A DNA stretch of 64,000 nucleotides, taken from positions 16,059,547 to 16,123,546 of the forward strand of contig NC_049983.1 of assembly GCF_000003815.2 (NCBI RefSeq), given 5' to 3'. Source of the stretch: Branchiostoma floridae (taxonomy: Eukaryota; Chordata; Leptocardii; Amphioxiformes; Branchiostomatidae). A program made the translations under genes and the position numbers. Shown here in pieces: positions 5,801 to 56,200 of this stretch. Numbering within the stretch: position 1 is the first letter of the stretch; every line of letters begins with the position of its first letter. The notes under the pieces were generated by a model. It ran no database searches. It was not told the origin of the DNA and was given only the letters and a program-made list of their open reading frames with translations.

Positions 5801-8800
5801 TCTTTTTCTTAGGCCACACCAATTTTTCTTGGGAGTCAACTTTCCAATTCCTTTCAAAGTCCTGAAGGCATGGATCAGCACCATGGACAGGGCTGTTTTT
5901 TCGACTGTTGTTTTCTTTCTTGATTTTACTTTGAAAAGTCAATTGTAACAGACCTGAAATCAAGAAGTTGAGTAAGATGAGCATTTCATGGTGAAAATTG
6001 ATTGCTTTCCAAGGGCAAACTTATTTGTTAACCTGCTTCTTATTTTGAAACTAGAAGTAAAATTTGAGAAAGAGAGTGAAGATAAAGTTAAAATGTACAA
6101 GCAATCTATTCTAAACTACAAAGTAAAGAATGTTTGGCCAAATTTTGCAGAACTGCCTTAAATTTAGCCTGATTTGTAGTCAAATGCGGTGCCCTTGAAT
6201 TTAGCGTAAAGCATTTTGGGACCCCCCATGCACATCCTCTAAAAATTGCTGACAACATCTTTGCATAATCCACTATCTGAAACAACATGCATATACAGCA
6301 TGTTATTAGCAAGGTACAGCATTCCTTAATTAGAATTTCCATGTAGATCTTCTAATCCAAGTAACGTATTTCAATCCGGGAGCCAACCAAATCAATCGGC
6401 GCGGCCCAGTATTGATTGATTGACATCTGGAAATCAATGTAATTACTTCCACAGTACACTTTCAAAGCCACAAGGCAGTCCTTGAGTCCCCGTAATTGGA
6501 GAGGTTGTAAAATCAATGATAGCCCTAAGCACTATGTGACACATGAATCGAGCTGCAAATTGCAGATCTAAATCATGACAATGTAATGTGATTTGCAAGT
6601 GTTATGAATTGCGCCCGGGGTGCCAGCAGTGGATTATGCTCATCGAAGGCATTGTTTGGTGCCTATTTATTTTAATGAAGAAAGATGAGACTTGTCCGGG
6701 CATGAGTGTGTGTCTGTTTTCCCCTGTGTATAGGAAGTAGAGGCCATGGTGGGTTTGCTTGGATGTGAAATAACAAAACAGGACCTAAAAGCAAAATAAT
6801 GCAAAATAGCTTTTGGCTCGCCTGACATTTTGTTTACCAGAATATGGCCACTGTTCCTTTAACCACTGCACTATTTTTTGAGATTAGTAGATGTTCAGAG
6901 GTCACTGAGCCCCATCAAGTAATGATTTGGTGATAATGAATTTGTTGATCTGATGATCAAGAACAAATTTGACCAAAGGTCCTTGGACAGTGTAGTAAAA
7001 GAATAATGCATTTTACTCAATGATTACCATGAGCAGTCGTAGGCGTATTTAAGAGTGGTTTACTTTGTACGTAGTGTATTGTACTGTTGTCTTGTATTGC
7101 ATTTCTTTGTGTTGTGTTAATATTGTTTTGTTGTGTGCTACACGTATTGCAAAATGCTTTGTTGTATTGCACTATCATTTCATTATAGTGTATTTTGATG
7201 TGCTGTAATATGTTTTAAATATTTCATTGTATTTGTTATTTGCTTTGTAGAACTACATGTAGAAGACACCAACAGCAGGCAGCTATTGGCAAACAAGCCC
7301 TTTAAAATTAAATTGAACTCCAGACTTTCGATCAATAATAAGTTATAACTTTAAGTTTTTTTGTCAACTGACTGAGCAGTATCCATATTGTACATTAATG
7401 ACTACTGTTGTATTCATTAGTTCCTTTGCACAGAGTTGTAGACTCTATGGACTGACAGTAGTAGTAGTAGTAGTTTATTTAAAGACCGGCTCTAACATCT
7501 TCACACATCCACCCCCTCAGGTTGCAGATGTACCGTACTACAGTGCCATGGACGGCATCCCTGAACACAGGCTGCCTGGGCTGGCTGATGACAAGTGGCT
7601 GGGGGGACAGACTAACCGCACAAACAGCTCTATACACATCCCTGTCAACATCTATGAACAAGGTAGAATTAAAAGACATTTTGATGAATTTTATGATGTT
7701 AATGCACTAGAGAGAATACAGGCTGCAAGAAGTTACTGCTTTGCTCTGTATCTCATTCAGCTTGGAACCCATCTTTTAAAAATATCACCGAATTTTGCAC
7801 TCATGACCCAATTGTCCAGGACACATGACTGTATTGTGTGACATCAACAATGGCTCAAAGGTTGATAGAAGTCAATTCCACCCCTGTGACGGTTGAGAGA
7901 AGGTTCATGCTCTTTGTTTTGCCTTTTTCAATTTGTGTTTTTCCCCTACTAGATGCACACGTGCTGAACGTGATTGCCTGGTCCTCCCACCTGGACTCAG
8001 TGTTTATAGACAACTGGCAGCAGAACCAGGAGACTCTGCCCTGGCAGGCCTTCGCCAGCCAGACTGGAGTGTTCCGCATGTACCCCGCCAGACCCATGCA
8101 GCCTCACAGATTCGGCAGCAGTAAGAGCTTCACTCTACTTTTGTTTTATTTTCATAATTATCATGTTAGTCGTTGCTTGTGTGTTGTAACCAGAGCTGTC
8201 TCGAGGACCATACTTTCCATCTCAGGATGTAAAGTTACTTATTGGGACCAGGAAAAATCGCCTGTCCCATATATCTTCATGATACAAAAATGTTGTCTTC
8301 ATAAAAAAGACATAATATTTCAATATAACATTTAATGTGTTTTTCTAAGATAAATATGACAGATTTCAAAACACTATAAATCAACAGCATGAGCTCCCAA
8401 ACAATAAGTTGGTCTACTGTCTAGTCTCATAAGAAATCGACAGCTAGAAACAGCCCTGATTCAATGTAAATATATACTCACCTGAGATTACAACAGTAGT
8501 AGCAGTTATAGTTTCCCAGCATCATTTCTAAAGTTAACTGAAAACCACTGAATAGCTATCTTAAAGTGTATTAATATTATAAAGACAACATTTTCGCAAA
8601 ATGTGGAATATGTCTCTTCCAGTAATTTGCCTGAAACTAACACAGATTTTAATCTGTAGGTTTGCTATAAATATAATCACAAACCTATAATTACAAGAAG
8701 AGGTTGTGCTGTTGCAAACCTGTTACAAAGCAGATTTTGCTATTGCAAAGATGTAATTGTTAATATTTGCTAGAACAGCTAATATTTTGCTCATATTTGC

Positions 8801-26800: not shown

Positions 26801-29800
26801 AAAGTAACAAGTATGAACAGAAAAATAGAAAAATCTTACTTTCCCGATCGGGCAAGTGGGGTCGGACATTTGCTTGCCATATCTGCACTTTCCCTTGCTC
26901 AGGACAACCAGGCTAGTGGACTTGTCCAACCCTGGTTTTACCTTGTGAAACCCCAATCAAAGAACAGATTTGTTTGACCATCATGGTGTCAGAACCAATC
27001 GAAGAACAGATTACTTCTGAGTCCCCAAAGTCAAGTCTACAATGTCATGCACACCTGCAGATGGGGTATTGGAGTCACAACCCCAATTTTAAGGTCATCC
27101 TCTCTTGGCCTGCCTGTTCTGACCCACAGTTGAGGACAGCAAATTACTCTATGGATTTTGTGCTTATAGTGTGAAGAGTCTTATTTCTTGGGTGATGCCA
27201 GGTTGTAAAAAAAGTGAAGCTGGTCATGTGATGCAGCTTACAAAATTTTAAGGTCATGCTTTCTTGGCTTGCCTGCTTTGACCCATAGTTGTGGGCAGCA
27301 AATTACTTTATGGATTTTGTGCTTATAGTGTGCAGAGTTGTATTTCTTGGGTGATACCAGGTTGTAAAAAGAGGAAAGTTGGTCTTGTAATGCAGCTTAC
27401 AAAACTTAGGCTATTAACACCCTGCAAATGTTTGTCAGTCAAAGTGTACTTGTGTGTCCATCTAATTTATTACTGCCAAGCAGATTAAGTTCTATCCGAG
27501 CATATTCAACAAAAAAGCTGAATATGAACCTTTAAAGTCTCAAAAACACTTTTAAGATCATTACTGTGCAGAAAGTGCTTTATTGCTGGCCATACATAAA
27601 ATGTTGTGAGATAAGAAAAAAAACTTTCCATATATGCCATTCCTGATATGGGTGGTAAAACCAAGTCTCATATTATTTTCCTAAACCTTTTTAATGACAT
27701 TTTCAGAACTACATTGATGAGGTTCAGATGACTTACCACTATGGACCAGTCAAGGGTACAGGATTCAGGTACATTGTATATGATCATAGAAATAACAATG
27801 AATGCAGTTAAAAATGAAATGAATACAAATTATGATATGACAATTTACTAATATCATTACTAAAGGATAAAGAGATAGACTTTTTTCTTGAAAATAGTTG
27901 CAATAACGTCCCTGGGATTTTACAATTATTAATAGAATAATATTTCAAAGTACTCAAAAAGCTAAATGTCTACAGATATCACACAGCCACTTACTTTCTT
28001 ATGCAAAATGTTACTAAGGACATATTCAAGGTTTCAGGATCGGCTAAATTGGCATTTTGACCTTCCATTGTTTTCTCATTAATGAATTAAGAAAGAATGG
28101 AACCCTAACCAATTTTGATACATGGGCATAAAAGAATTCTAAATCTGATTTTTTGGGGCCATATGGATGATGTCATCAGGTTTTATTGCCCTTGATATTA
28201 TTTTTTTCTATGAGAAAATACAGCAGTTTGGTCCATACATGTACCACTGGAATGAAGCTATGTTTTTCATGTGCATAATGATGAAAGCTACAAACTCATG
28301 TTAGCGCCAATTGATATCTGCTAATGATCTGTAATTATTAGAAAATGATTTTTTTGATTAGATGAAAACAATTATTTTCTAATAACTACAGTACTGTTCA
28401 TTAACCGATATCAATTGGCGCTAAAATTCTTAAAAATTTCTTCAACTGAATCTGACATATCTATGTGTGACATGTTTTGGCCATTCATTTCCAAATAAAA
28501 TGTAATTGGCTTAGAAATCATAGTAATCACACATTGTTTTAACCGTCTGCATTAGTTAAAAATAATTTACATAATATTATGTACATCACAGTCATGGAAA
28601 ACCTGACATTTCTTGTTCCAGCATGGGCTTGGGTATTCCACAGTACCACCCTGGATCCCTGGATGTGTCGGGGGTCTCATACCAGGAAGGTTGGTCTCAT
28701 CACGATGTTCTTCACTTCAGGGATCTCGCACTGTAGTTTTGACAACTTTTTACAGAATTGAAAATGCATGAAAAAGGAGTCTCTTCTAGGACTCTTAAAA
28801 ATCAAGATGCCATGATTACTGCAATGATCTTTGTTTGTATTGTATACTCTGTAAACAGGCTTGTAGCATAACCCTGGGGACCTCTAGCCTTTAAGCTACA
28901 CATGGATGTAAACATGGCTAGTGCTAATTTTTGTTTTGTGCTGCCACAAAGATAACATTAACAATATCAATTTTCTGTACTTTGATATACTGCATGCTTA
29001 TTATTATATTATGAAATTCAATGTGCAATTTGCAAATATTGTGTAGTTTCATAGTGCATGTACCAATTGTAGCTACAACCTGATGGTTTTCACTGTTTCG
29101 CAGGGTTCCGGGCCTTTGAAAGCAACTCAGCTGGGAAGTTGGTTCTGACACCACTGTAAGTCTGAAGTTCTCTGAACTTAGTGGCTGACAGTAAAAATTT
29201 GATTGCTTAAGATTTGTAAACCCATTTGGTGATATGACTCTCAAACATGTAACTATCGAGTAAGAAACTTCTTATTCTGTTTACATTGTTAATGTTGTAA
29301 ATGTAAACTGCATGTAAACAGTGTACAGTAACCACAATAAATATTTTAGCCACTGCAGAAAAACATCTTAGCAACTTGATAGAAGTCAAAAGTTCTTGTT
29401 CTGCAAAAACAAAACGACGAATTTCTTTATTTTTTCCTCAGATTTTACTGCTCTAATTACTCGTCCAGTCCACACAACTGTCAGGACAACCTGCGCTGTA
29501 AGGTGAGGGAGAAGATAGCAGATGCACATCACCTGGGGCAGAACGCACCTGAACACTGTAAGTACACCTGGTCAGTGTTCTCACACTGTAAGTACACCTG
29601 GTCAGTGTTCTCACACTGTAAGTACACCTGGCCAGTGTTCTCACACTGTAAGTACACCTGGTCAGTGTTCTCACACTGTAAGTACACATGTACACCTGGT
29701 CAGTGTTCTCACACTGTAAGTACACCTGGTCAGTGTTCTCACACTGTAAGTACACCTGGTCAGTGTTCTCACACTGTAAGTACACCTGGTCAGTGTTCTC

Positions 29801-32800
29801 ACACTGTAAGTACACCTGGTCAGTGTTCTCACACTGTAAGTACACCTGGTCAGTGTTCTCACACTGTAAGTACACCTGGTCAGTGCTCTCACCAGGATCT
29901 TTTTACAGCATAGGCCATACATCTTAGTCCAGCAAAGCCACATAAGCGATGCAGATGTGAGTATTGTATTGGTCAGTGGGGGACTCCTCCCATGAAAATT
30001 ATTAATTTATAACCCTCAGAAACACTATTTTTCAGGCCACATTTAATGAAAAAAAGGCAACATTTCTTTTAGCTTTCTTAGTACAAAACAGAAAAACTTT
30101 GGAAGTAATTTCCATTATGCAGTATGCTGATTGAAACACAGCATCGGGGCCCAAATCACAGCGTAGGGGATACAAATCACAGCATAGGAGCCCGCTATGC
30201 TGAAAAGCTCTGGTGAGAACACTGATGGTAGGCACTGTTGTGTGTTGAGTGGAAACCCCCCACTAGTATGTGGAATGGTAGGACCCAGAGGGGTCAGAGA
30301 GAGAAGGAATCAGGTCAGACAGGAGTCTGGAGGGGAGATCTAGAGAGGCGAGGGGCACTCCTGGAGGGAGTCCAGGGGTTGTGTGCCATGTGCGACAAGA
30401 GATGAAGAATAAAATAGTCTATATCTAGATTGTGTGTCCTTGAACTTGACTGAGAACCTCATAATTAAGATAAACTGGCAGATGTACCAACTATCAAGTA
30501 TCTAATACCAGCTCAGACAATAAGAAGCAGTCATGTCTTCAAGTACCAAAGTTTTCAATCAAAGGTTGTAATGCTTTCTTAGAACTAATGATTGTAGAGT
30601 GAAACTTTTTGCCATCAAGTATAGTAGGAGCACCCCCACTAGTTAGCTTTGAACAACATTTGCAGTCAGAAGTGCAAAGGTGTTACAGGTTGTTGACTGT
30701 AACATAACCAGCTGCTGACGCACTGTGTGTCTGGAAAGTTGGCATATTATGCAAAAGAGTGTTTATAAACTAGCTACATTGTATATGCAATGTAGATACA
30801 AAAATAATACAAAAAGAGCAAGTAGTCATCATCATCATCTGTTGATGTGCCCAGGTGATGAGAAGATGATACAGCATGTGATGCTTGATGCTGTCGTCAC
30901 CGCCAGCCACGCAACCAACCAATGGCAGAGCCTTGCTCCGCAGTTTCAGAGGTTTGTCTTTCTCTGTTTTTATCCTTCCTCTTTTGTGTGATTGCAATTG
31001 AGTAGTCAAGTTCTTTTCTTGTGACTGAATATTAATAATTTCCTGTTTTTTCACAGTCAGGGAATCGACTCCTTGTTTATCAGTGGAGCATCCGGACTGA
31101 CAAGGGTACTTCATGATGGGTAAGGATATTCTCCTTAGTGTGTGCCTGTTTAAATCTGGAGGCTTAGTAGCTTGGCCATTACTTGGTTTAGAGATAAGTC
31201 ATCTGTAAAGGTCTCCCAGATCATAAGAATACAACATGAGTAAAAAGATGTGGCAAGAAAGATCAACAATGATACCCTTATTGTACGCCAAAAAGTAGAG
31301 ACGAACTAGATATGATTTTGGAAAGAGTCAGACGTTTTAGACAGCCGTCTGGTGTCTTCCATCAGTCACAGATAGGGCTGGGTACCGGTACAGCGTACCA
31401 GTACAAAACCGTTTTTTCTTAGTGGACTGGTCCAGAAAAACCAGACCTGAAAAAATTCCGAGAACCGGATGTTGGACCTATTGGAAAGTGAACAGATTAT
31501 ATGATCAGTCATTCACACGTTTTGGAGCTTACCGGTCAAGGGAAATAACAAGAGCGAAGTAGATAAGCGTTTATAATCATTTCTACCAACTTTCAGTCAA
31601 TATTCCAGAGAAAGTTAGCCTTGTAGGACTTTAAAACACAAGTGAGAGTTGAATACTCCACAAAACTGATTTCTTTCTGGCAAAATGGACCATTGTTTTC
31701 AGTATCGTCCATTCACAACTTGTCACATACTGAATCAGGTCCAGGTTCAGGTCCTCACCTGGACCTGATCCTCTGGACCTGAACTGGACCTGGACCTGAA
31801 TTTTCTGTACTGGTACCCACCACTAGTCACAGATTCTGGAGAAATCTCAAAACAAGATTTCTACCGTGTCACTGACAAAAGACACTGGATGGCTGCCTGA
31901 AATGTCTGACCATTTCCAAAATCATGTCCAGTTGCTTGAGTAAATGCTTTTGGGTGTATATTATTTCCTGGATGTCTAACCTTCATCGACGTCCTCTTGT
32001 TGTCTGTCCTTTATTCATACCAAGTATCTTCAAGTTCAGTTGTGTCCTGGTTAGCTTAATTTAACCTGATTGCCCCTTATACTAACTAACATCATCACTG
32101 TCTTTTCTTAATCTTGTCCAGACTGACAAGGATATTTCGTGATCGGTATGGACATTCTGCTTTGTAACATTTTTGTCCAATTTTGTGTAATACTATGTAG
32201 CTGACTGTATTGGCTCACAACTACAGTCCTCTGAGGCTTTCTGCAAGGGTCTTGTAGATCGCAACAATATTATATAATTCAGTAGTGGTAGTAGGGTTCT
32301 GAAGCCACAAATTTGTCCAGCTGGTGGATTTTAACTCTGAATCTAAAAAATCCAGGGGCCTGGATGGGCCCAAAAATAACCCACAGGGCCACTTAAGGGT
32401 CTTGCACAAACGTTAACTCCTTGTTTTGCAACTGTTACTGTAGCATTACTAATACCATTAATGTCTCGTCTTCTAGGGAAACCCCCTTCCACCATGGAGA
32501 CAGCTTCACGGCCACCTACTTCACTCGTTCCCTCAGCAACAAGGATGTGTACATGTTCCACACCCCACGGGAGGAAGGTGGGTTTTTAGAGGTCAAATTC
32601 TGTGTAGCCTGAAAGTGGGTGTTTGATCCCACTTCAGGAATTGCATCCATCGATTCAGATGGCTGTGTGTATTGGGCTCCTTCAGGCAATGGTCTTCAGC
32701 ATGAAAACTTTTGCTTGTAAAAGAGCCTGAAAGACCTAAAGTGGTTGTTACACTGCAGCCACAATATGTACTGGTTAGGGACGCTTTAAGAATTACTGGA

Positions 32801-35800
32801 CGTGCAATAATAACTTTACACTTTATTGAGAAGTGTAGAGTTTACTCCAAAGCACTCGGGTACAACGTATATATAAAATCATTCTTTATTCGGAAAATAA
32901 AGGAAAGTGACATTGATCCCAGGTCATGCCGGTCTTTGCAGATCAAACATGCAGGGAGACATGGACAAATTGACATACAACATTACAATAATGATATCAA
33001 ACACTTTAGTTCAGTATCGTCTTAAAATCATTCGTCTTAAAATCATTCTATTGCACAGTATTCCCAGTGTGGCTCATGTCGAGCTCTCCATATCGCATAG
33101 GAGGACAATAATGACATTCGACTAATGTCTCTGAAGAGCTTCTTTGGTACTTTTGCCTTAACAGTCTTGAACAGCGTTCTGAGTCTATTCTTGTTATCTG
33201 GGGTGATGAGCCCCCTTGATCCAACCTCAACACAAGTAAGAGTAACTGAAATGCCTGTTTTGCTCAAGTCTGACACAAGGGAAGTATATTTGTTAACCTT
33301 ACGCTCATGACTGGCTTTAATGTTCTGTTCAAAAGGTACAGTTAGTTCTTGTATATGGATGGTGTTTTCTCTAGGCAGGAATATGACTAAGTCCGGCTTC
33401 TGTGCTGTAGGTATGGTTTGAACAGGAATAGTACCGCCGTCAGTTGTATACCCTTGCAAGTCTGCGTAGACACGGACGTCTATCTGCGAGTGATCAATGT
33501 TCTCCTGAAGGGTATCCACTATGTGTTTAAGTATGGAATTGTGCCGGAACGTATATCGTCCTTGCTGAAGGGAGACGCCACAGTTATTAAGAACATGATG
33601 TAGAGTTTCCCTATTACCGCACAGTTTGCATTTGTCATTGGTACGCTTGCCCCAAGTGGCTAGATTACAGAATGTCGGCAGAGCGTCTATCGATGCACGT
33701 ACCGCGAAGCTGAGAATACCCTTTGGGAGGTCATACATCACTGACTTCCAGGTGAGATCACATTTCTCTTCTTCGATAAGCTGTAGCATGTGTCCTTGTT
33801 GTTGTAGGTTCTTTTGATGTTCAGACCAAGTTTCGTGACGCATATTTGTAACTTGATGTTTGATTTGTTTTCGGACCGAAGGCCAACATGTGTCTGTTGT
33901 CGCATTCATAGCTTGTTGGTGGATTGAGTGGCATTTTCCAAGGCCCCATCTCTTCATCTTCCGTGACCACTGTGACTCTCTATCTAGTTTGGCCTGGAGA
34001 GCATGTTTCACCTTGTCGTCAGCCTTGACAGCCGATCTGCTGTAGGCCAATGTGTGGGCCTCGAGATACAGGTCTGAAATGGTTTTGTAGTTTAGTCCTA
34101 CTGTGTTGTACAGGATAGCGTTAGTGGCACTAGCCTGCACTTTGAGCCATGACTTAATTGCTTTAGTATGGATTGCATCGAGTTTTTGTAGTTGAGTGTC
34201 GGTCAAGTCATGCACCATTAGGAGGTACCTCCATGACGGAAAAGCATGTTCCATGTAGACCCTGAGTTTGTACTCGTTTCTTATAGCCGATTTGTTTATG
34301 TTTTCAACTGCTGTTTGTATTGTCTTCGCCACAATGTCATATGTCTCTTTTGTCTTACCCGAGAAAGTTATGTACCCACCCAGGAACTTCTCTGGAGCAT
34401 CTTTAGTTGTCTTGACAGGTTTTCCATCAATAGTGAAAGTAGTCTCTGTTGGTTTACCACTTGTAATGGACATGGATTTGCACTTGCGCGGCTTCAGTGA
34501 AAGGTTCATTGACTTGGTGTTCGAAGAAATTTCACTGATTAGTTTCTGGTGTTGTTTCTTGTTCGTAGTTATCAGGCAGAAGTCGTCCGCGAAAGGCAGT
34601 GTGATGTAGCGTTGTCCATTAAGGTCGTAGCCGTATTGTTGTTCCACAGCCTTAAGGTCCTGTAGCAAGGGTTGGAACACAGTCAGGAAAATGATAGGTG
34701 ACAGGTTGTCTCCTTGAAATACACCCCTACCAAACGAAAATGGATTGGATTCCCAGCCGGGACCTTTAACTTTCCCTTCGAGGCGTGAGTACAAGTTTTT
34801 GACATATTCCATGATGATGGGGGGGAACTTGTTCCTTGACATTTGATAGTAGATCAAGTTGTGTTCAACGGATCCGAATGCATCTGCAAGGTCGAACCAG
34901 GTTATATGGACTGTCCGCCGATTCTTTTTTGCATGGGCCAAGATTTCCCTCATGACTTGGATGTGTTCCACACAGCCGTTGATACCCGTTAGGAAAGCTT
35001 TTTGCGTTTCAGGGTCAATCAACTTATTGTCGGTCATGTATTTCGTCCACCTTTCGGACAAGATTTGGTGAAAGATTTTAGAAACACAAGACGTCAGGCA
35101 AATCATCCGGAAGTTTCCGGGATCCTCAGGGGAGCCCTCTTTGTGGAGTAGTGCCACAGTACAGGATGACCATGACGTGGGTGGGTCTCCGGACTCAAGC
35201 AGCTTGGAAAACAAAGTGCTGAGGAACAGGTGGCATGCAGGTAGGCGCTTGAGGTGACCGTACATGATCCCATCAGGGCCAGGTGCAGATGTGGCACATC
35301 GTTTGGATAGGACTGCTTTGATGTCTTTGGGCCTGACAGGTGACATGTTAAACGGATTATCCGGCGCATGATCCTCCACGGGTAGGTGGGGGAACCAGAA
35401 CAATTTGTTGAAGTCAATTGGAGTCGGGGTGGAGTATTTGTTATGGTAATACTCGTTGGCATAGTTCAAAGAGAAAGCCGGTTTCACAGGGGGAGTGTCA
35501 AGTTGCCCTTTTGCACATTTTCCTGCAAATTTCCAAAAATTTTTGTGGTATTCTTTCTCTTGATGTGCTGCTGATTTTGACATTTCTTTTCGTTTCTGTT
35601 GTCGTTTCATGAAAGAGTATGTTTTGATTGCGTCTCGGAATGCTTTGCGATCCTCAGATGTTGCATTGGCTTGGAATGCCTTTTTACGCAGTTTATTTTT
35701 CAGGCGTTTAACTTGTGTAAGGGACGATGGTTCGTGGCTAACATAACCAGATGAGTGCCCTTCTTCTTTGTCGTGGTAGAATTCCGGCTTACTGGCCATA

Positions 35801-38800
35801 AAATCGCTCATGGTGTCGCTAAATCCTTCACCGGCTAATTTGGGAGATATCTCGTTTGTCGAGAGTGCGTGGTGAAGTGGGCCTAACATGGCTTTTACAT
35901 CATTGTTGTGTTCAGTCCAGATATCACTAGGCAATGATGGCAGTTTGAAAGACAAGAAGGCCTCTGTACCTGTAGTAGAGATAAGTGTCAGCAGGATCAG
36001 TAGCGTCCAAGTGTTGCAGGGATCAGAATGTACACGGAACGCCATCTTGGACGTGGGGAGGGCGACGCTGAAGATATTCCAAAGTGGCTAAATCTGTGTT
36101 AAACCATCAAAAGATCCCTAGAAATGTGCCGAACAGTTGCTGTAAGTATTCAACAGTATGTCCTCTAGGAAATTGGGTGATCCAGCTCCGTAGGGATGCC
36201 CTGAGTGCAGTATTTGCGGAGACAAGAGCTGTCGCGGGCGTCCCGTCTGCTGGTCACGTCGTGTCAATTTGCAAAGCACTCGGGTACAACGTAACTGTAA
36301 GCTGAATAGCAAAGCCACATTACACTACCAGCTATTGGAAAATCATTAAACATCATCAAGTATTGTATTTTGACTTCCATGGAAAATAAAAAATAATAGT
36401 GACATAATCAACATTAAAAGTGCTCTTTTAAATGTGTTTTACCAATTTAATTTCTTGGTTCACGGATTTTTTAGAATAAACATATTAAAGAATAAAAAGT
36501 TTTCAGCTTGAAAAAAGTACAAAAACACTATTACTGTACAGTAACAGCACCTGTTCGTTGAAAATTACAAAAGTAGTGTCAGTTTTTATGTTTGTCCCAT
36601 TCTTCATGAATAAAGAATATAACTGGAATAATAATACCCACATTTTAAGGAGCTTGTAATATAAAGGCCAATTTGCTAACACCAGCAAGTTGGTGAATGG
36701 TTTCGTTAATGGTGAAAATTTGCTGAGTGGTAATTTTTATGAGCGACTCTGTGAACCAATCAATTAAATTGGTATGGCCTTATCTTTACATAGTTTTTCA
36801 CTAACATCATACCCAATGGCATGTATTTTTTTTCAGATATGGAGCCATCAGACCCACTGAACATTGTTGGAGCTAAAGCTGTGAAAGTGCCTGTACAGGG
36901 ACAGGATGTTCTACCAGCAGGTAAGCTGATGTATGGACATTGTAATGCAGGGCTTGAAATACTTATTTCTGCAAACCTGCACTGGTGCAGGTAACATTGA
37001 AAATTACCTGCACCAAACAAATTTTACCTGCACCACTCCAAATTTAGGAACATAGGATCATACTAAAATTGTTCAGGAACCAATGCTACTTTTTCTTTTA
37101 TACATTGTAGGTGGTAACATTTATGCAGCTAATAACACTCCATACACAGTACATGGCCAGTGCAGGTTAGGTGCAGGTAGACATCAGAAATACCTGCACA
37201 GCCCCAATTTTACCTGCACTAACCTGCATATGCAGGTGGTATTTTGAGCCCTGTAATGAATAGGAGGAAATAGATTTTATCTATCTATAGGTCTTTCCAG
37301 ATTTTAAACAAATGTTAGGAGGGCTAACAAATTGCAGTTACCAGGTAGCAGAGGCCAAAAAGACTTGGTTGAATGGAGTGTATCAGAATAACATTTAGAT
37401 GTGCTACCTAACCAGTGTGGACTAGCCGACTGATGCTCATGTATGCCAGGTACATCTGCAGCAGTATAATCAAATGACGGATACTACTATTCCTCCATGA
37501 GGCCGTCTCTTCAAATTCAGTACAAATAAAAGAAATACAAGCAAAACCAAATATATGACTAATACTAGCACCCAAAACATTAGATGATGATAAGAATTTA
37601 AAAAATAAAGAACTTTGTCGCTGTTCTAGCCCATCATTGACATTAACAGTGTAAAATGACATGCTCACAAATGTTGCTCTCCTTGGTACTGAAAATTGCA
37701 TAGTGATTGTGCAAAGCATTTTCCATTGAAAATTTCACATGTTTAACCCTTAAAATGCCAGAGTTCCAGCCCTATAAAATGCTATTAGTTCCAGGGTTGG
37801 CCGCTGACCTCTGAAAAGAGACCCCCGAACAAGGTCGAAGTCCCTAACTTCCGGGGTTCGTGCGCTACACGCGTGCAAAGCTGCTACTTTGGGGGAATAC
37901 GCTATCCCGGTTATAACCGGGCATGGCACACAGGGCATGTATATGTGTGCCAGATATATCCGGGTTTGGCAGTTTAAGGGTTGAACTGTGAAATTTACTT
38001 TTTTTACGCTTACAATGTTATTCACATCATGCTGCCCCAATTGTCAATCCACTCTGATGAATATTTAGTGTTTGCATTATGATAATATCCGCATGACCAA
38101 TAGTTATTGATATGTTCATAGTTGAGATGTATACCTAAACATAACATCATGTGTTAGTATCCTGTGTTGTTCCATAGATAACAGAACTTGAATATACAGT
38201 TAACAGAATGTTTATTTAAATTTCAAGTGTTAAGGCAGAGGATCTCAAATCAATCAATTGTGCTGATTTTACCAATTACATGTATGCAATGTTCTAATTT
38301 TTCCCTAGTGCAAAATTTAGTGCCAAAGTGCATCCACATTTTGTAGATACTATATTTAGTGCTTTTGCACCTCTTTTCTAATAGCACAGCCATGATATGT
38401 GGTCCTTTCTCTGTACAGTTGCAGGGGCAAACATCAACGCAGATAAAGTCTCTGACAAAATGAAGGATATTTCAGAAATCGTGAGTAAATTTGTCCTTTT
38501 TCTGTCATTTTGGCATATTCTTCAAGTCATTTTAAACTGTTCAACAGGTTCAATACATGGATGCTATGATTTGTTTTCTTGCTGACTTTACAATTGTTGT
38601 TTTTTGTCTTGTTAATTTACAGAAGGGATGTCGAACATACACACCAACATCCTGTATGACCTGTGCAGATATGGTAAGTGTTCAATGTGAAAACACACTA
38701 GAATCAATTCTAGAGGGGAAAATCTAAAAATAAGAATGTATGATCAGTTTTTGAGGTGCTAAAAACTTGTGTTTTTTTACTGAATATTTGTTTGTATCAT

Positions 38801-41800
38801 TTGTTTGATATTTACACATTTAGACAGTAAAAAGCCATATATTTCTGTGAAGGCATAATTTTTGGATAGGAAAGAAACAGGGCTTTTGCAGTCTTTTAGG
38901 TTTCTTGTTGATGTATCAGTGTATGTAACAACAGACTGATTTATTTGTGACATGAAACAACAGTGGATGTATCCTAGGGTTATATTCCCCTATGACATGT
39001 AAGTTCAGGTTGGTGAGTATATTCTTCTCCCAATGTCTGTACTGTAGGATGCAGAATGTTTCCTGTTGGATGATGGAGGTTTTGTCATCGCCACCACTAG
39101 AGATGACAGCCAGGATGTGGTATGTCTGCTTTGTCACACTCACACACTCACTGTCCATTGTTTTATTTTACTGCTGCTGGGGTCCCTGATGCAGGGGTAG
39201 ACAGCAGTCGGCTAGTCTTCACACCCCGCTTCCATGCGGCTCTGTCCAGTGGGTCGACCCCTGTTAGTCTGCATACCTTCATGTCCATCCTAACAAACTC
39301 CATCCAGGTTTTTCTTGGTCAACCACAACCCCTGTTGCCAGACACTTTCAGTTTGGTGATGGTGACAACCTTTTGTTTTACTGACGATATGTATATATAT
39401 ATCGTGGTGCCATTGGTCAGGTGTATGGTGCAGCAGGATGTTTGTCCCAGAATCCAGATGTACTGGGTTTGAATCCCCTAACATGCTTCAATGTCTTTTT
39501 AGAAGGGTTTACTTATGTCATTGAGTGACATAAGTAGCAGCAACATACTGTAGCAACCCACTTTAACTGAGCTGCAGTATGCTTTACAATTTAAAGATGA
39601 ACAGCCTTAAACATACATGCATAATCTAAACATTAAAATCTTAACATACTTCTTTTGACATACTTACTTAGATGTTTTACTATGGTATGTACAATCTATA
39701 TGTCTTCAGGAGGTTGTTGTTTTTCCTGCAGATCGGGACATTTTTAGGAGACAGGGATGGTTCCCTGATGATGTCACTTCTGCAGCATGAAGTTTATGAG
39801 AGGTAAATTTTATTTCTTCTGATGTAACAGTTATTCTATTCAACAATTTGGTAGAGTAATCATTGGCATTTCAATGTTGACCTGAAAAATAAGGACAGTT
39901 TTAAGTCACATGGTCCTTGTAACAACATGGTAAAAGGGTTTGAACAAGTATTTGGAAGTTTAATCCCAGCTATGTTGCAGCAGGAAAATGTTTGATTCCA
40001 TATATGATGCAGTACATCATACAACTTAGTACCAAAACTAATTCAACAGAGACAGGGACCAATTTCTTTGTAGAGAGGTGATCAAAGGAACAAACTACAG
40101 CTAGAGTATTTCTATTTGATGTGTTGGAAATGGAATCAGTCAAGACAGCTCTGGTATTCTTATGACTGACCCACAAAAATACTTTCAAATGCACAACTAG
40201 AATACAAAACCTACAATAAGATGAAAAACAATTATTGTTACAATGCACATAAAGAATAGGGTGGACACCAGGCTAGTACATGTAATGTTCTGTAGACCTG
40301 TACTTATACATTTCATTTCTTTCTTTCCTGCTAGGGTGGAGTCATATGACTTTGCCCACCCTGTGGNNNNNNNNNNNNNNNNNNNNNNNNNNNNNNNNNN
40401 NNNNNNNNNNNNNNNNNNNNNNNNNNNNNNNNNNNNNNNNNNNNNNNNNNNNNNNNNNNNNNNNNNNNNNNNNNNNNNNNNNNNNNNNNNNNNNNNNNNN
40501 NNNNNNNNNNNNNNNNNNNNNNNNNNNNNNNNNNNNNNNNNNNNNNNNNNNNNNNNNNNNNNNNNNNNNNNNNNNNNNNNNNNNNNNNNNNNNNNNNNNN
40601 NNNNNNNNNNNNNNNNNNNNNNNNNNNNNNNNNNNNNNNNNNTCACAGAGTGACATACTTTCTTTGATCTCTTCTAGCCAATTGCGGAATGCTAAGGTTA
40701 GGCTGGTGGACCACCTCCGTGGCCTGGTAAGTTGTTTACACTATTTAAAGGCCCATGATTTAATGATAATTTATTAACATTTCCTGACATTTCTTTACAT
40801 GCTAAGTGAGATCAACACTGTAGATTTGCATATCAATACATGGGGGGGGGGGAGAGGTTACAATCATTATACCATACAGACATGTTTACAAACTGTGGTC
40901 TTTCAAATCAGTGTTCAAAGTACAATATTAAAAGGCAACTTTTCTTTTGCCGTTTTGGTCGAACTTTTTTTCATTTGCACGCTCATATCAGTTTTTGTGT
41001 TCCCAGTGGATTCAAAAAGCTAACTGATTATATTTTCACAGGGGTTACCTGAGGTACTATGTGTATGGGTGAGTACATGTACAATTATGCTTTTATTGCA
41101 TATCTTGTGCTTTGTTGTGTTGTGTTATACTTAATACAGTTCATGAAAATTGTGTTACGGCATAAATATGCATGGCAGAATTGGAATGACAACAGAATAA
41201 CATAAGTCTAGTTTGAAGGTTAGGTGATACTCCATAGCCTGCATTACAATATGCACATGTGTTGCTCCATTTTGAATTTGTTTATTTTCGTCACATTCCT
41301 TTTGCTTTATTCCTGTGCTTTCTACAGATCCTTGATGTCAGCGTGGCTGAGTGTTGGTAAGTTTTGCTGCAGCAGTTTGAGCAATTTTCACAAGTATGAC
41401 AAAACGTTGATATGTTCAAGAAACAAACATTTGATAGATTAGTGGATGTTTGATTTGAATTGGCATTTCTTCATATTTTAGATGTATCATATATGAAATG
41501 TATCTAGTATTGTATTAATCCCTTACCCCTGTTTCAGTTTAGTCAAGTGTCATAATTATGACCAAAGATCATTTGATTTAATCGGTTGATGAATGTTAGA
41601 TATCAGTATATTAACTTATGATAGCCAAATACACTGTTACAGTTGTAGCAGTTACTCATGTAAGCACAATTTACTGATGGTTTCCAAATCTAGTTGCGTG
41701 AGTAATTGCTGTTTGCAAACATTACTTGGTTCAAGAAACAAGCTATCAGTAGATCTGTTTAATGGGCATTTTTCCATGATCCTAATGTAACATATAGGGC

Positions 41801-53200: not shown

Positions 53201-56200
53201 ATGGTGTGCATGTTTAGTTGTTAAAAACACAAATTCTCAAAGTTCAGGACAATAACAGTTGACAAGATTAAAAATGGTGAGAATTTGTTGTAGCCATGGC
53301 AGCGGTTGCCATGGCACGGACCAATAGGACTACTAACCCTGGGTGCCCCGAGAAGGAACTGTGGCAGACCAGACGCTGCCTCATGATCGGGGTTTGTATG
53401 ATTCTGAGACTGCAGTAACACAGGAGGGGGTTAAAAACACTTCACATGTGCAAAATCTCACCGGTAAAATCTGTGCCCCCCTCCCCACTTCTCTTTAACA
53501 AACACATGGCAATAAAATTGGTAAAAAAACACTTCAAATGTACAAAATCTCACCGATAAAAACTGTGCCCCCCTCCCCACTTCTCTTATACAAACACTAA
53601 AGATGATATATTGGTAAAAAAAATGGTAATAGCTCAGACCAACTTTTGTTTGTCTAACTTTCTCTACTTAAACTATTATTTTACCACAATTACCTTTAAT
53701 GTGCAATTAATTAACACACTTAATAGCATTGATAATCATGTCTATTGACCACATAGACAAGATTTTATTGATCTCTGTTTAGTCTTCTTGGGCAATTTCA
53801 ACTGTATACATTTTCTCAGTAAACAAATACTAGATACGAGCCTCTGGATTTGGCTGGTTGGAATAATGGTAAACTATTCTTCACTGTGATTTGCCAATGG
53901 TCACCTGATCTCTGACCAACGACAGGTGCAGAAAGCAACCATGAGTCTCATTGGCAGTTTTGACTGTACACATTTTTCAGTAAACAAATACTAGATTCAA
54001 GCCTCTGGATCTGGTTCACTAGATTGATGGTAAACTAGTCATCATTGCTGTGATTTGCCAACGGTCACCTGATCTCTGACCAATGACAGGCGCAGAAAGC
54101 AACCATGAGTCTCATTGGCAGTTTTGACTGTACACATTTTTCAGTAAACAAATACTAGATTCAAGCCTCTGGATCTGGCTGTCTAGGATAATGGTAAACT
54201 AGTCTGTGATTTGCCAATGGTCACCTGACCTCTGACCAATGACAGGTGCAGAAAGCAACCACGAGTGTAACGCACCAGCTCGTTGATTGGTGGGTAGAGT
54301 CTGTTGTTGGGCGTGTCCACGTTGATCCATCTCCAGACCGTGAAGGGCTCCCCGGAGATCTGCTGGCTCTCTACGCGGATCCGCGACTCGTTGGCAGACA
54401 GAAACTTCACGGCCCTGTCCCAAACCTGGCCCAGCTTCTTCCTGTGGGAACAGGGTGAAAGGTCAAACGGTCAGGAGTAGCTGTTAGGAATAGCAGAGAT
54501 TTTTCTAGGAAAAAATTGCAAGGGGGCCTTGCGAACGAGTGGAGCACAGAAGCCAGGGATTGTGTGGAAGATCTACAGGGGCTTCCCACTTTCCACAGTG
54601 TGGAGCTTGAGAGAACCTTAATATGGAAGGAACATTCTAAAATTACTGTCAGACAGGTCACTGTTAAAGACTGGTGTTCTGGAAACTGTAGACGATTAGA
54701 ACTAGCTTACATTATGTGCAAATACTTGTAAGTTTGGGAATTGCATCCATAAGCAGCGACACATGTGAAAGGAAAGACAACAAAATGCCATTTGAATAAA
54801 TCAGTTTATTGTATACAAAGAATTTTGATTGACAAGTTCAAATGGTGTAGAAGGAGGGATGGTTCACTAACCTCTCCTGGGGAGGGATGAGCATGTCCCT
54901 GACGTGGGGAATGGCCAGGTACGGCTGCAGGTCTGTGTTGTGCCTGCAGGCCTCCGCATGCTTCTTCAGTGCATCTGGAAACAGAGTAACATGGTCAATA
55001 CATATCTGCAGACTAGCCATGCCAGTTGAGCCAAAATCATCCAAACTCATACAAGCCCATCAGCTTCAGCAGAAAACTGTTACTAACAGTCATCTTTCCC
55101 AGGATCATTGCATCATTGCATCATTAAAAAAAAACACAAATTAGTCGTGAGACTGGGTGGGCGTCACTCCACCGTCATGGGGGCAGGGGCATGGCGAGTA
55201 TCGAACTCAGGACCTACTGATTCTGATTCCAACACTCTAGCCATTGCGCCACACAGACACCCTAGGTCATTGCATCGTTGAGTACATCAGACAGTAAAAT
55301 CCAAAAAGGTACTTTTATATGTAGAAATACGTTCACACCATGAAAATCAGACTGCTACAGGTTAAATTTATCATCTGTGTGTTTATGGCTAGCTCATTTG
55401 CAGCAAGTTCATTAACTTAATTGTTTGTTATTTTTCTTTCTGTACCTACCTAGAATGCGCTCGATCATGTTATACATGAGTCTGTTGTCCTCCTCTTGTC
55501 TTCTCCATCTGTACCGCATCAGTTCCACCCCTCCCCACACCAGGGCTACACCTGATACATGGTAAACACAACACATCAGTTCCACCCCTCCCCACACCAG
55601 GGCCACACCTGATACACAACAAACACAACACATCAGTTCCACCCCTCCCCACACCAGGGCCACACCTGATACACAACAAACACAACACATCAGTTCCACC
55701 CCTCCCCACACCAGGGCTACACCTGATACATGGTAAACACAACACATCAGTTCCACCCCTCCCCACACCATGGCAACACCTGTTACATGCAAATGCAACA
55801 ACATTTTGCTTAGTGCAACTTTATAACCAAGGTAGCACAGCACGGAATGTGAAATTTTGCAGTTGGAACACCTTTTCCCCCACCTAACACATTCATAAGC
55901 TTTTGTATTTATTTCTTGGTAAGATAAGACATAAGTAGTTACATGTAACTGAAAGAACTTGGAAGTGGGGCAACCTGTAATTTGATGGCGCAAAATGGCT
56001 TTTGACTCAGATTGTTACCTGAGCAACTGTTAAATCCCAGATGGCCGTCCATCCCAAAGGCGCTTCTGGGATGGAAGCGCATCTGGGATAGGTCTGCATC
56101 CCAGATATGCATATCTGGGATAGGCTAAAAACCTGGCTGAAAAAAGTATTTCCACCACTGAATCATCTCCTCACTACATCATAGCTCTGCGTCAGGAGTC

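Follow-up and report, generated by a model that had tools for sequence, protein, structure and literature searches.

Eleven identical 5' splice sites follow one another in tandem at the end of an exon in a 64-kb stretch of the Branchiostoma floridae genome (the window; positions below are counted from its first letter), and they raise the question of how such an array could arise and what it does to the product of its host gene, alpha2delta (CACNA2D). We read the array as a mirage of the amphioxus type, i.e. a tandem repeat lying across an exon-intron boundary, which would have arisen when a miniature inverted-repeat transposable element (MITE)-like sequence inserted behind the exon and the junction was then duplicated in tandem and tolerated. 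We give this reading a probability of about three in four; the order of events, their mechanism and the use of the first donor are the parts that we infer.

Eleven donors at the end of an alpha2delta exon

The 10-mer CACTGTAAGT occurs exactly eleven times within window positions 29554-29871, with starts at 29554, 29584, 29614, 29644, 29674, 29712, 29742, 29772, 29802, 29832 and 29862. Allowing up to one mismatch, the window holds 17 matches, a number attained by 0 of 100 shuffles. Tandem Repeats Finder places the array at 29553-29892, with a period of 30 and 11.1 copies; on the forward strand it is a minisatellite of 11 copies of ACACTGTAAGTACACCTGGTCAGTGTTCTC, spaced 30 bp apart throughout except for one step of 38 bp, due to an 8-bp insertion in copy 5. 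Both methods bear out the first-pass annotation, which had described eleven donor copies with this spacing as a minisatellite of repeated 5' splice sites starting at the end of an alpha2delta exon; the start, at 29553, lies 5 nt inside the exon 29442-29557, and Pfam and PDB comparisons (below) identify that exon. GTAAGT is present in all 11 units. The ten 30-bp copies carry two substitutions, at 29632 and 29886, both outside the 10-bp donor.

The exact unit is particular to this place. In genome searches, which covered an assembly of 513,431,437 bp in 431 contigs, the exact 30-mer unit had 8 matches, all inside the alpha2delta array, and a search with the intron flank found no second full-length copy among the matches listed (40 of 1065 candidates scored). 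A single allele is visible at the array, as merged haplotypes would explain: PMC7269912 describes the assembly as having 19 chromosomes, 489 Mb of contigs, Sanger reads and merged haplotypes. Within the window, 12 of the 16 tandem-repeat rows were checked with their flanks (the remaining four being one sub-row and three simple or short arrays), and GTRAGT was repeated in one of them, the alpha2delta array. An Rfam search gave no matches.

The exon adjoining the array, 29442-29557 (forward strand, as are all exons of this gene), ends in phase 1, and its final base T opens a conserved Cys codon that is finished by the initial GT of the next exon, 30855-30951 (DEKMIQHVMLDAVVTASHATNQWQSLAPQFQ). 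It is preceded by the exon 29104-29155 (FRAFESNSAGKLVLTPL), whose last codon is split with it, and the exon after the pair lies at 31057-31119 (QGIDSLFISGASGLTRVLHDG). The peptide spliced from these four exons matches Pfam VGCC_alpha2 (E=8.7e-5, 22 bits, at a cut-off of 22), and its matches in the PDB, although weak (best E=0.03), are alpha2delta-1 in 8 of the 8 listed. A tblastn search of the window with human alpha2delta-1 returned 14 rows, each weak alone (E 0.037 to 6.6), of which five are collinear with the human protein (39054-39107, 39729-39797, 40689-40727, 41919-41984 and 42387-42482), and this collinear order supports the alpha2delta assignment. The 5' part of the gene may be represented by a VWA_N-like exon near 7495, whose match (E=0.017) is below the family cut-off. 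The genome-wide six-frame VGCC_alpha2 search listed a paralogue, and the window's own exons were not among the matches listed. The donor of the exon 29104-29155 is the same 10-mer, CACT|GTAAGT (29152-29161), 402 bp upstream of array copy 1.

Several other features were seen in and around the gene. An unbroken reverse transcriptase frame of 1013 aa, resembling that of a long interspersed nuclear element, lies between alpha2delta exons at 33043-36084 on the reverse strand (RVT_1 2.1e-27), and runs of N interrupt the gene at 40367-40642 and 42004-42103. Two further tandem repeats of the window, a 159-bp duplication upstream at 27085-27404 and a 57-bp repeat of 5 copies at 55517-55800 with open frames on both strands, are without donor hexamers.

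The repeat unit ends in the tip of a MITE-like element

The 30-nt unit is composite: it consists of the last 5 nt of the exon (ACACT), the first 15 nt of the intron, GTAAGTACACCTGGT, and 10 nt of the end of a transposable element, CAGTGTTCTC. The element is a MITE-like sequence of 344 bp at 29881-30224 (forward strand; 5' end CAGTGCTCTCACCAGG, 3' end CTGGTGAGAACACTG), inserted 15 nt past the donor, and its start lies inside the last array copy. The first-pass annotation had made no mention of this transposon end. It is flanked by CTGGT and ATGGT, and the intronic part of the unit runs up to and includes its duplicated target.

A genome search with the element listed 56 matches on many contigs, 8 of which, besides the window, span query positions 1-343/344 (40 of 386 candidates scored). 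Eleven relatives were retrieved, 8 complete and 3 partial, and the terminal inverted repeats CAGTGTTCTCACCAG / CTGGYGAGAACACTG are found in all 8 complete ones with small changes. CAGTGTTCTC stands exactly at the start of five of these and is one base off in the other three (L033, L035 and L037). Target duplications of 5 bp, a length first spotted by eye and then permutation-tested, show 11 mismatches over the nine complete copies (the window's included), where permuted 3' flanks would give 31.3, and 0 of 20,000 permutations were as good; lengths of 2-4 or 6-9 gave no comparable signal in the same nine copies. The duplication is perfect in two copies (TGGCT and GTTGA). The element thus has the features of a MITE: terminal inverted repeats, target duplications, dispersed copies and a length, 344 bp, too short for a transposase. 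The CAGTG termini are reminiscent of hAT, but target duplications of 5 bp fit few transposon groups.

The element also has an internal short repeat of about 20 bp at 30137-30193, whose number seems to differ among copies. The rest of the intron behind the array, searched by similarity, consists mostly of repeats: an interspersed repeat with many copies at 30236-30465 (75-92% identical where the match covers most of the repeat) and a second at 30470-30750 (copies 69-74% identical), neither with an assigned strand.

Proposed order of events and the first donor

Since the end of the element is present in the internal copies too, the array would be younger than the insertion and most likely formed after it. 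We propose that an old alpha2delta intron received a MITE-like element 15 nt past its 5' splice site, and that a segment comprising the last 5 nt of the exon, the start of the intron and the first 10 nt of the element was duplicated in tandem afterwards. The copies would have been joined at the 2-nt microhomology AC that is seen at the unit joint (TTCTC/AC/ACTG), and slippage or unequal exchange would then have expanded the unit to 11. Every such duplication would leave the original first donor beside its own exon; the protein would therefore stay unchanged while that donor is used, and arrays of this kind could be tolerated and persist.

The intron probably predates the array. In an alpha2delta paralogue on the same contig (C5:13263170-13267692), the next exon has the same phase and opens with GT GAT GAG; the 4.9 kb read before it hold no array. 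Gain of the intron through the array can be dismissed on the phase of that exon, the paralogue's upstream exon being not located in the 6 kb read.

Donor 1 (GT of GTAAGT at 29558) agrees with the conserved protein: it divides the Cys codon as T|GT, and a Cys stands at that place in the 3 aligned PDB chains shown. Its use is most likely, a judgement that we base on published mirages, which are reported not to disturb splicing.

Several points weigh against this account of origin and use. The last array copy reads CAGTGCTCTC rather than CAGTGTTCTC. The element was not seen near other donor arrays in the sequence read at 16 loci (L044-L059), which offer 113 to 2201 readable bases apiece and mostly cover a single side, so transposon seeding is not general. 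The 10-mer is identical in all 11 donors, with a U1 pairing energy of -6.8 for the first and second alike; donor strength therefore cannot favour the first, and any preference for it would have to lie in its position or in the exon context. Nor is donor 1 distinguished by local RNA accessibility: donors 1-4 are alike, and the advantage of donor 1 was matched in 55 of 200 shuffled-linker arrays. Nearly every unit can pair with the next as a CAGTGT-TCTC-ACACTG hairpin, and the RNA fold of the array is ordinary (z 0.20, 57 of 100 shuffles equally good). Sequestration of donors 2-11 by RNA structure was dismissed, as neither accessibility nor fold supports it.

Donor arrays elsewhere in the genome

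The array might owe its location to chance, a minisatellite in a minisatellite-rich genome having included a donor by accident and with no tie to splicing. We regard this as rather unlikely in itself; it is also compatible with a mirage seeded by the element, which needs tolerance only. Genome-wide, donor arrays show no excess over the reversed pattern (GTAAGT triplets at 20-50 bp spacing, 4130 against 10038 reversed; AGGTAAGT, 70 against 86), in keeping with a chance location, but the counts are of matches and not of arrays and so are weak both ways. Of the 67 arrays in a 251-kb sample to which the window belongs, one is of the donor kind, the alpha2delta array itself; of the other two flags, one is a 246-bp repeat and one a CA-rich run.

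Against accident stands the start of the array at an exon end, which recurs elsewhere. On contig C1 the first listed GTAAGT matches were grouped by eye into 12 consecutive arrays within the first 3.03 Mb, and the upstream side of all 12 was read. Four of them, in a comparison confined to GTAAGT arrays, start at an exon with a Pfam or PDB match. These exons belong to a dynein heavy chain (222 kb; best PDB match 1.7e-5, no Pfam match), to dynein AAA_9 (254 kb; Pfam 1.4e-5, below cut-off, PDB 8e-4), to SRP54 (297 kb; Pfam 1.9e-11, PDB 3.4e-24) and to TALPID3 (415 kb; Pfam 1.3e-4, below cut-off). The array at 588 kb has an open frame with no family match; those at 211, 1324, 1464 and 3026 kb have no exon by eye, and those at 61, 746 and 1821 kb run into N.

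Four further loci lie outside this sample; the THOC7, DNA-PKcs and L046 arrays were picked by eye. A THOC7 exon (L045, G000:C5:29357300-29358300; Pfam 1.3e-9, PDB 2e-9) ends at a donor array with units of about 37 bp, a DNA-PKcs exon (L049, G000:C13:21739500-21740500, minus strand) has behind it a donor array whose units measure 46 bp, and at L046 there is no clear exon at the array. A fibrinogen-domain gene met through the 10-mer search (L044, G000:C5:29351500-29353700, minus strand) has some 23 copies of a 37-bp unit at its donor, mostly exon sequence, with Pfam positions 39-112 before the array and 116-220 after it.

At a dynein-like exon (L052, G000:C1:253640-253990) an acceptor-side repeat, TTTCCATAG|GAACGACCTGACC, stands four times before the exon and a donor array behind it.

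A transposon end as a general seed of arrays was rejected: two arrays have the 10-mer (17 matches, control 0), and the second is the fibrinogen-domain mirage, which is not beside the element.

Did a transposase make the repeats?

A second alternative concerns the duplication mechanism only and is likewise compatible with a tolerated mirage. Over 8 bp, the exon end GAACACTG (29551-29558) matches in inverted orientation the element end CAGTGTTC, which lies 14 nt away, and it might have served as a false transposon end, with hairpin slippage or aberrant transposition producing the repeats. In the 8 other copies, the 40 nt upstream give matches of 6 bp at most, and each of 100 shuffles folds less well than the array as single-stranded DNA (z -4.7). 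On the other side, drawing 200,000 random 40-mers from the window gave such a match in 1341, the test having been chosen after the match was seen, and a repeat whose unit contains an inverted repeat will fold well in any case. At the ends of the element family no further array was found, and the sole other array with the 10-mer is not beside the element. The inverted match may have helped array formation; that a transposase made the array is improbable.

Copy number and isoform choice

A further alternative is that the donors form a ladder whose copy number sets the ratio of isoforms, as the first-pass annotation had suggested. Its arithmetic stands: donors 1-5 would add 0, 10, 20, 30 or 40 residues in frame, those of donors 2-5 (GT at 29588, 29618, 29648 and 29678) as CKYTWSVFSH units, and later donors change phase. 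For donors 6-11 (GT at 29716, 29746, 29776, 29806, 29836 and 29866) we compute a frame shift of +2, after which the fifth codon of the next exon reads as a stop. The ladder is therefore not an isoform series along its whole length, since its last six donors would yield a premature stop instead and, on this reading, make their transcripts targets of nonsense-mediated decay. The annotation had also held the coding frame to be open throughout. The frame is indeed open, from 29383 to the stop at 29911-29913, yet this is uninformative because 4 of the 6 unit frames are without stops, so that openness is expected by chance.

For such a rheostat speak the five in-frame donors followed by six stop-producing ones, the identity of the donor 10-mers, and the presence of an 8-His insert (presumably a tag) in solved alpha2delta-1 chains, where it comes a few residues before this conserved Cys. 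Against it, the VGCC_alpha2 score falls from 22 to 15.4 bits when two units are included, and mirages elsewhere are reported without disturbance of splicing (PMC3087553, PMC3902484). That 0 of the 2 substitutions fall in the donor 10-mer lends no help, since so few changes say nothing on selection. Vertebrate alpha2delta-1 has a splice-variable region C, SKKGKMK (PMC3988960), 54 residues upstream of the junction, and placement of the junction in this known alternative region was accordingly dismissed. We consider the rheostat very doubtful.

Its fullest form is more doubtful still: a length-tunable switch in which donors 1-5 would place Cys- and aromatic-rich 10-residue loops beside the conserved Cys, donors 6-11 would feed nonsense-mediated decay, and gain or loss of units would shift the ratio between individuals or cells. 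Units could perhaps be gained and lost in somatic cells by analogy with Adh3, for which this is reported. Isoform tuning by copy number is a possible effect of the array, unsupported by the present results.

Significance and relation to known systems

With the element-seeded mirage as the preferred reading, part of the array's history can be read from the unit itself, where a splice donor and a transposon end are joined, and this composite hints at the way in which the alpha2delta array arose. The relative order of events can be checked in other lancelets. Such arrays recur at two dynein heavy chain exons and at exons of SRP54, TALPID3, THOC7, DNA-PKcs and a fibrinogen-domain gene; this genome would thus seem to tolerate repeated splice sites widely, and it offers a natural test bed for the cell's choice among identical adjacent donors.

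Mirages have been described in amphioxus Adh3 and in the globins BflGb6 and BflGb9, with 6 and 3 units in two haplotypes, and PMC3087553 suggests that regular splicing is undisturbed by them and states that their origin is unclear; for a PGBD5 mirage, PMC3902484 infers undisturbed splicing, citing Adh and troponin C. Like the alpha2delta array, many of these repeat a splice signal, and its 30-bp unit falls within the 10-72 bp range given for the Adh3 mirage. Intron gain at AGGT sites by tandem duplication, treated in PMC3087553, likewise duplicates splice signals; unlike there, no new intron is evident at the alpha2delta array, where the intron probably came before the array.

Tandem repeats derived from transposon ends are also a known theme. 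In the minisatellites and satellites of PMC9659126, which derive from terminal inverted repeats, the transposon terminus is part of the unit as the MITE terminus is here, but two thirds of the alpha2delta unit are host exon and intron, including the 5' splice site. Among the open-licence papers listed by our searches, none was seen to describe a CACNA2D mirage or a mirage that contains a transposon end. The array differs from published mirages in being in a new gene, in holding the end of a transposable element in its unit and in having only 5 nt of the unit exonic. It belongs to the published mirage class, and its composite unit with a MITE end is new.

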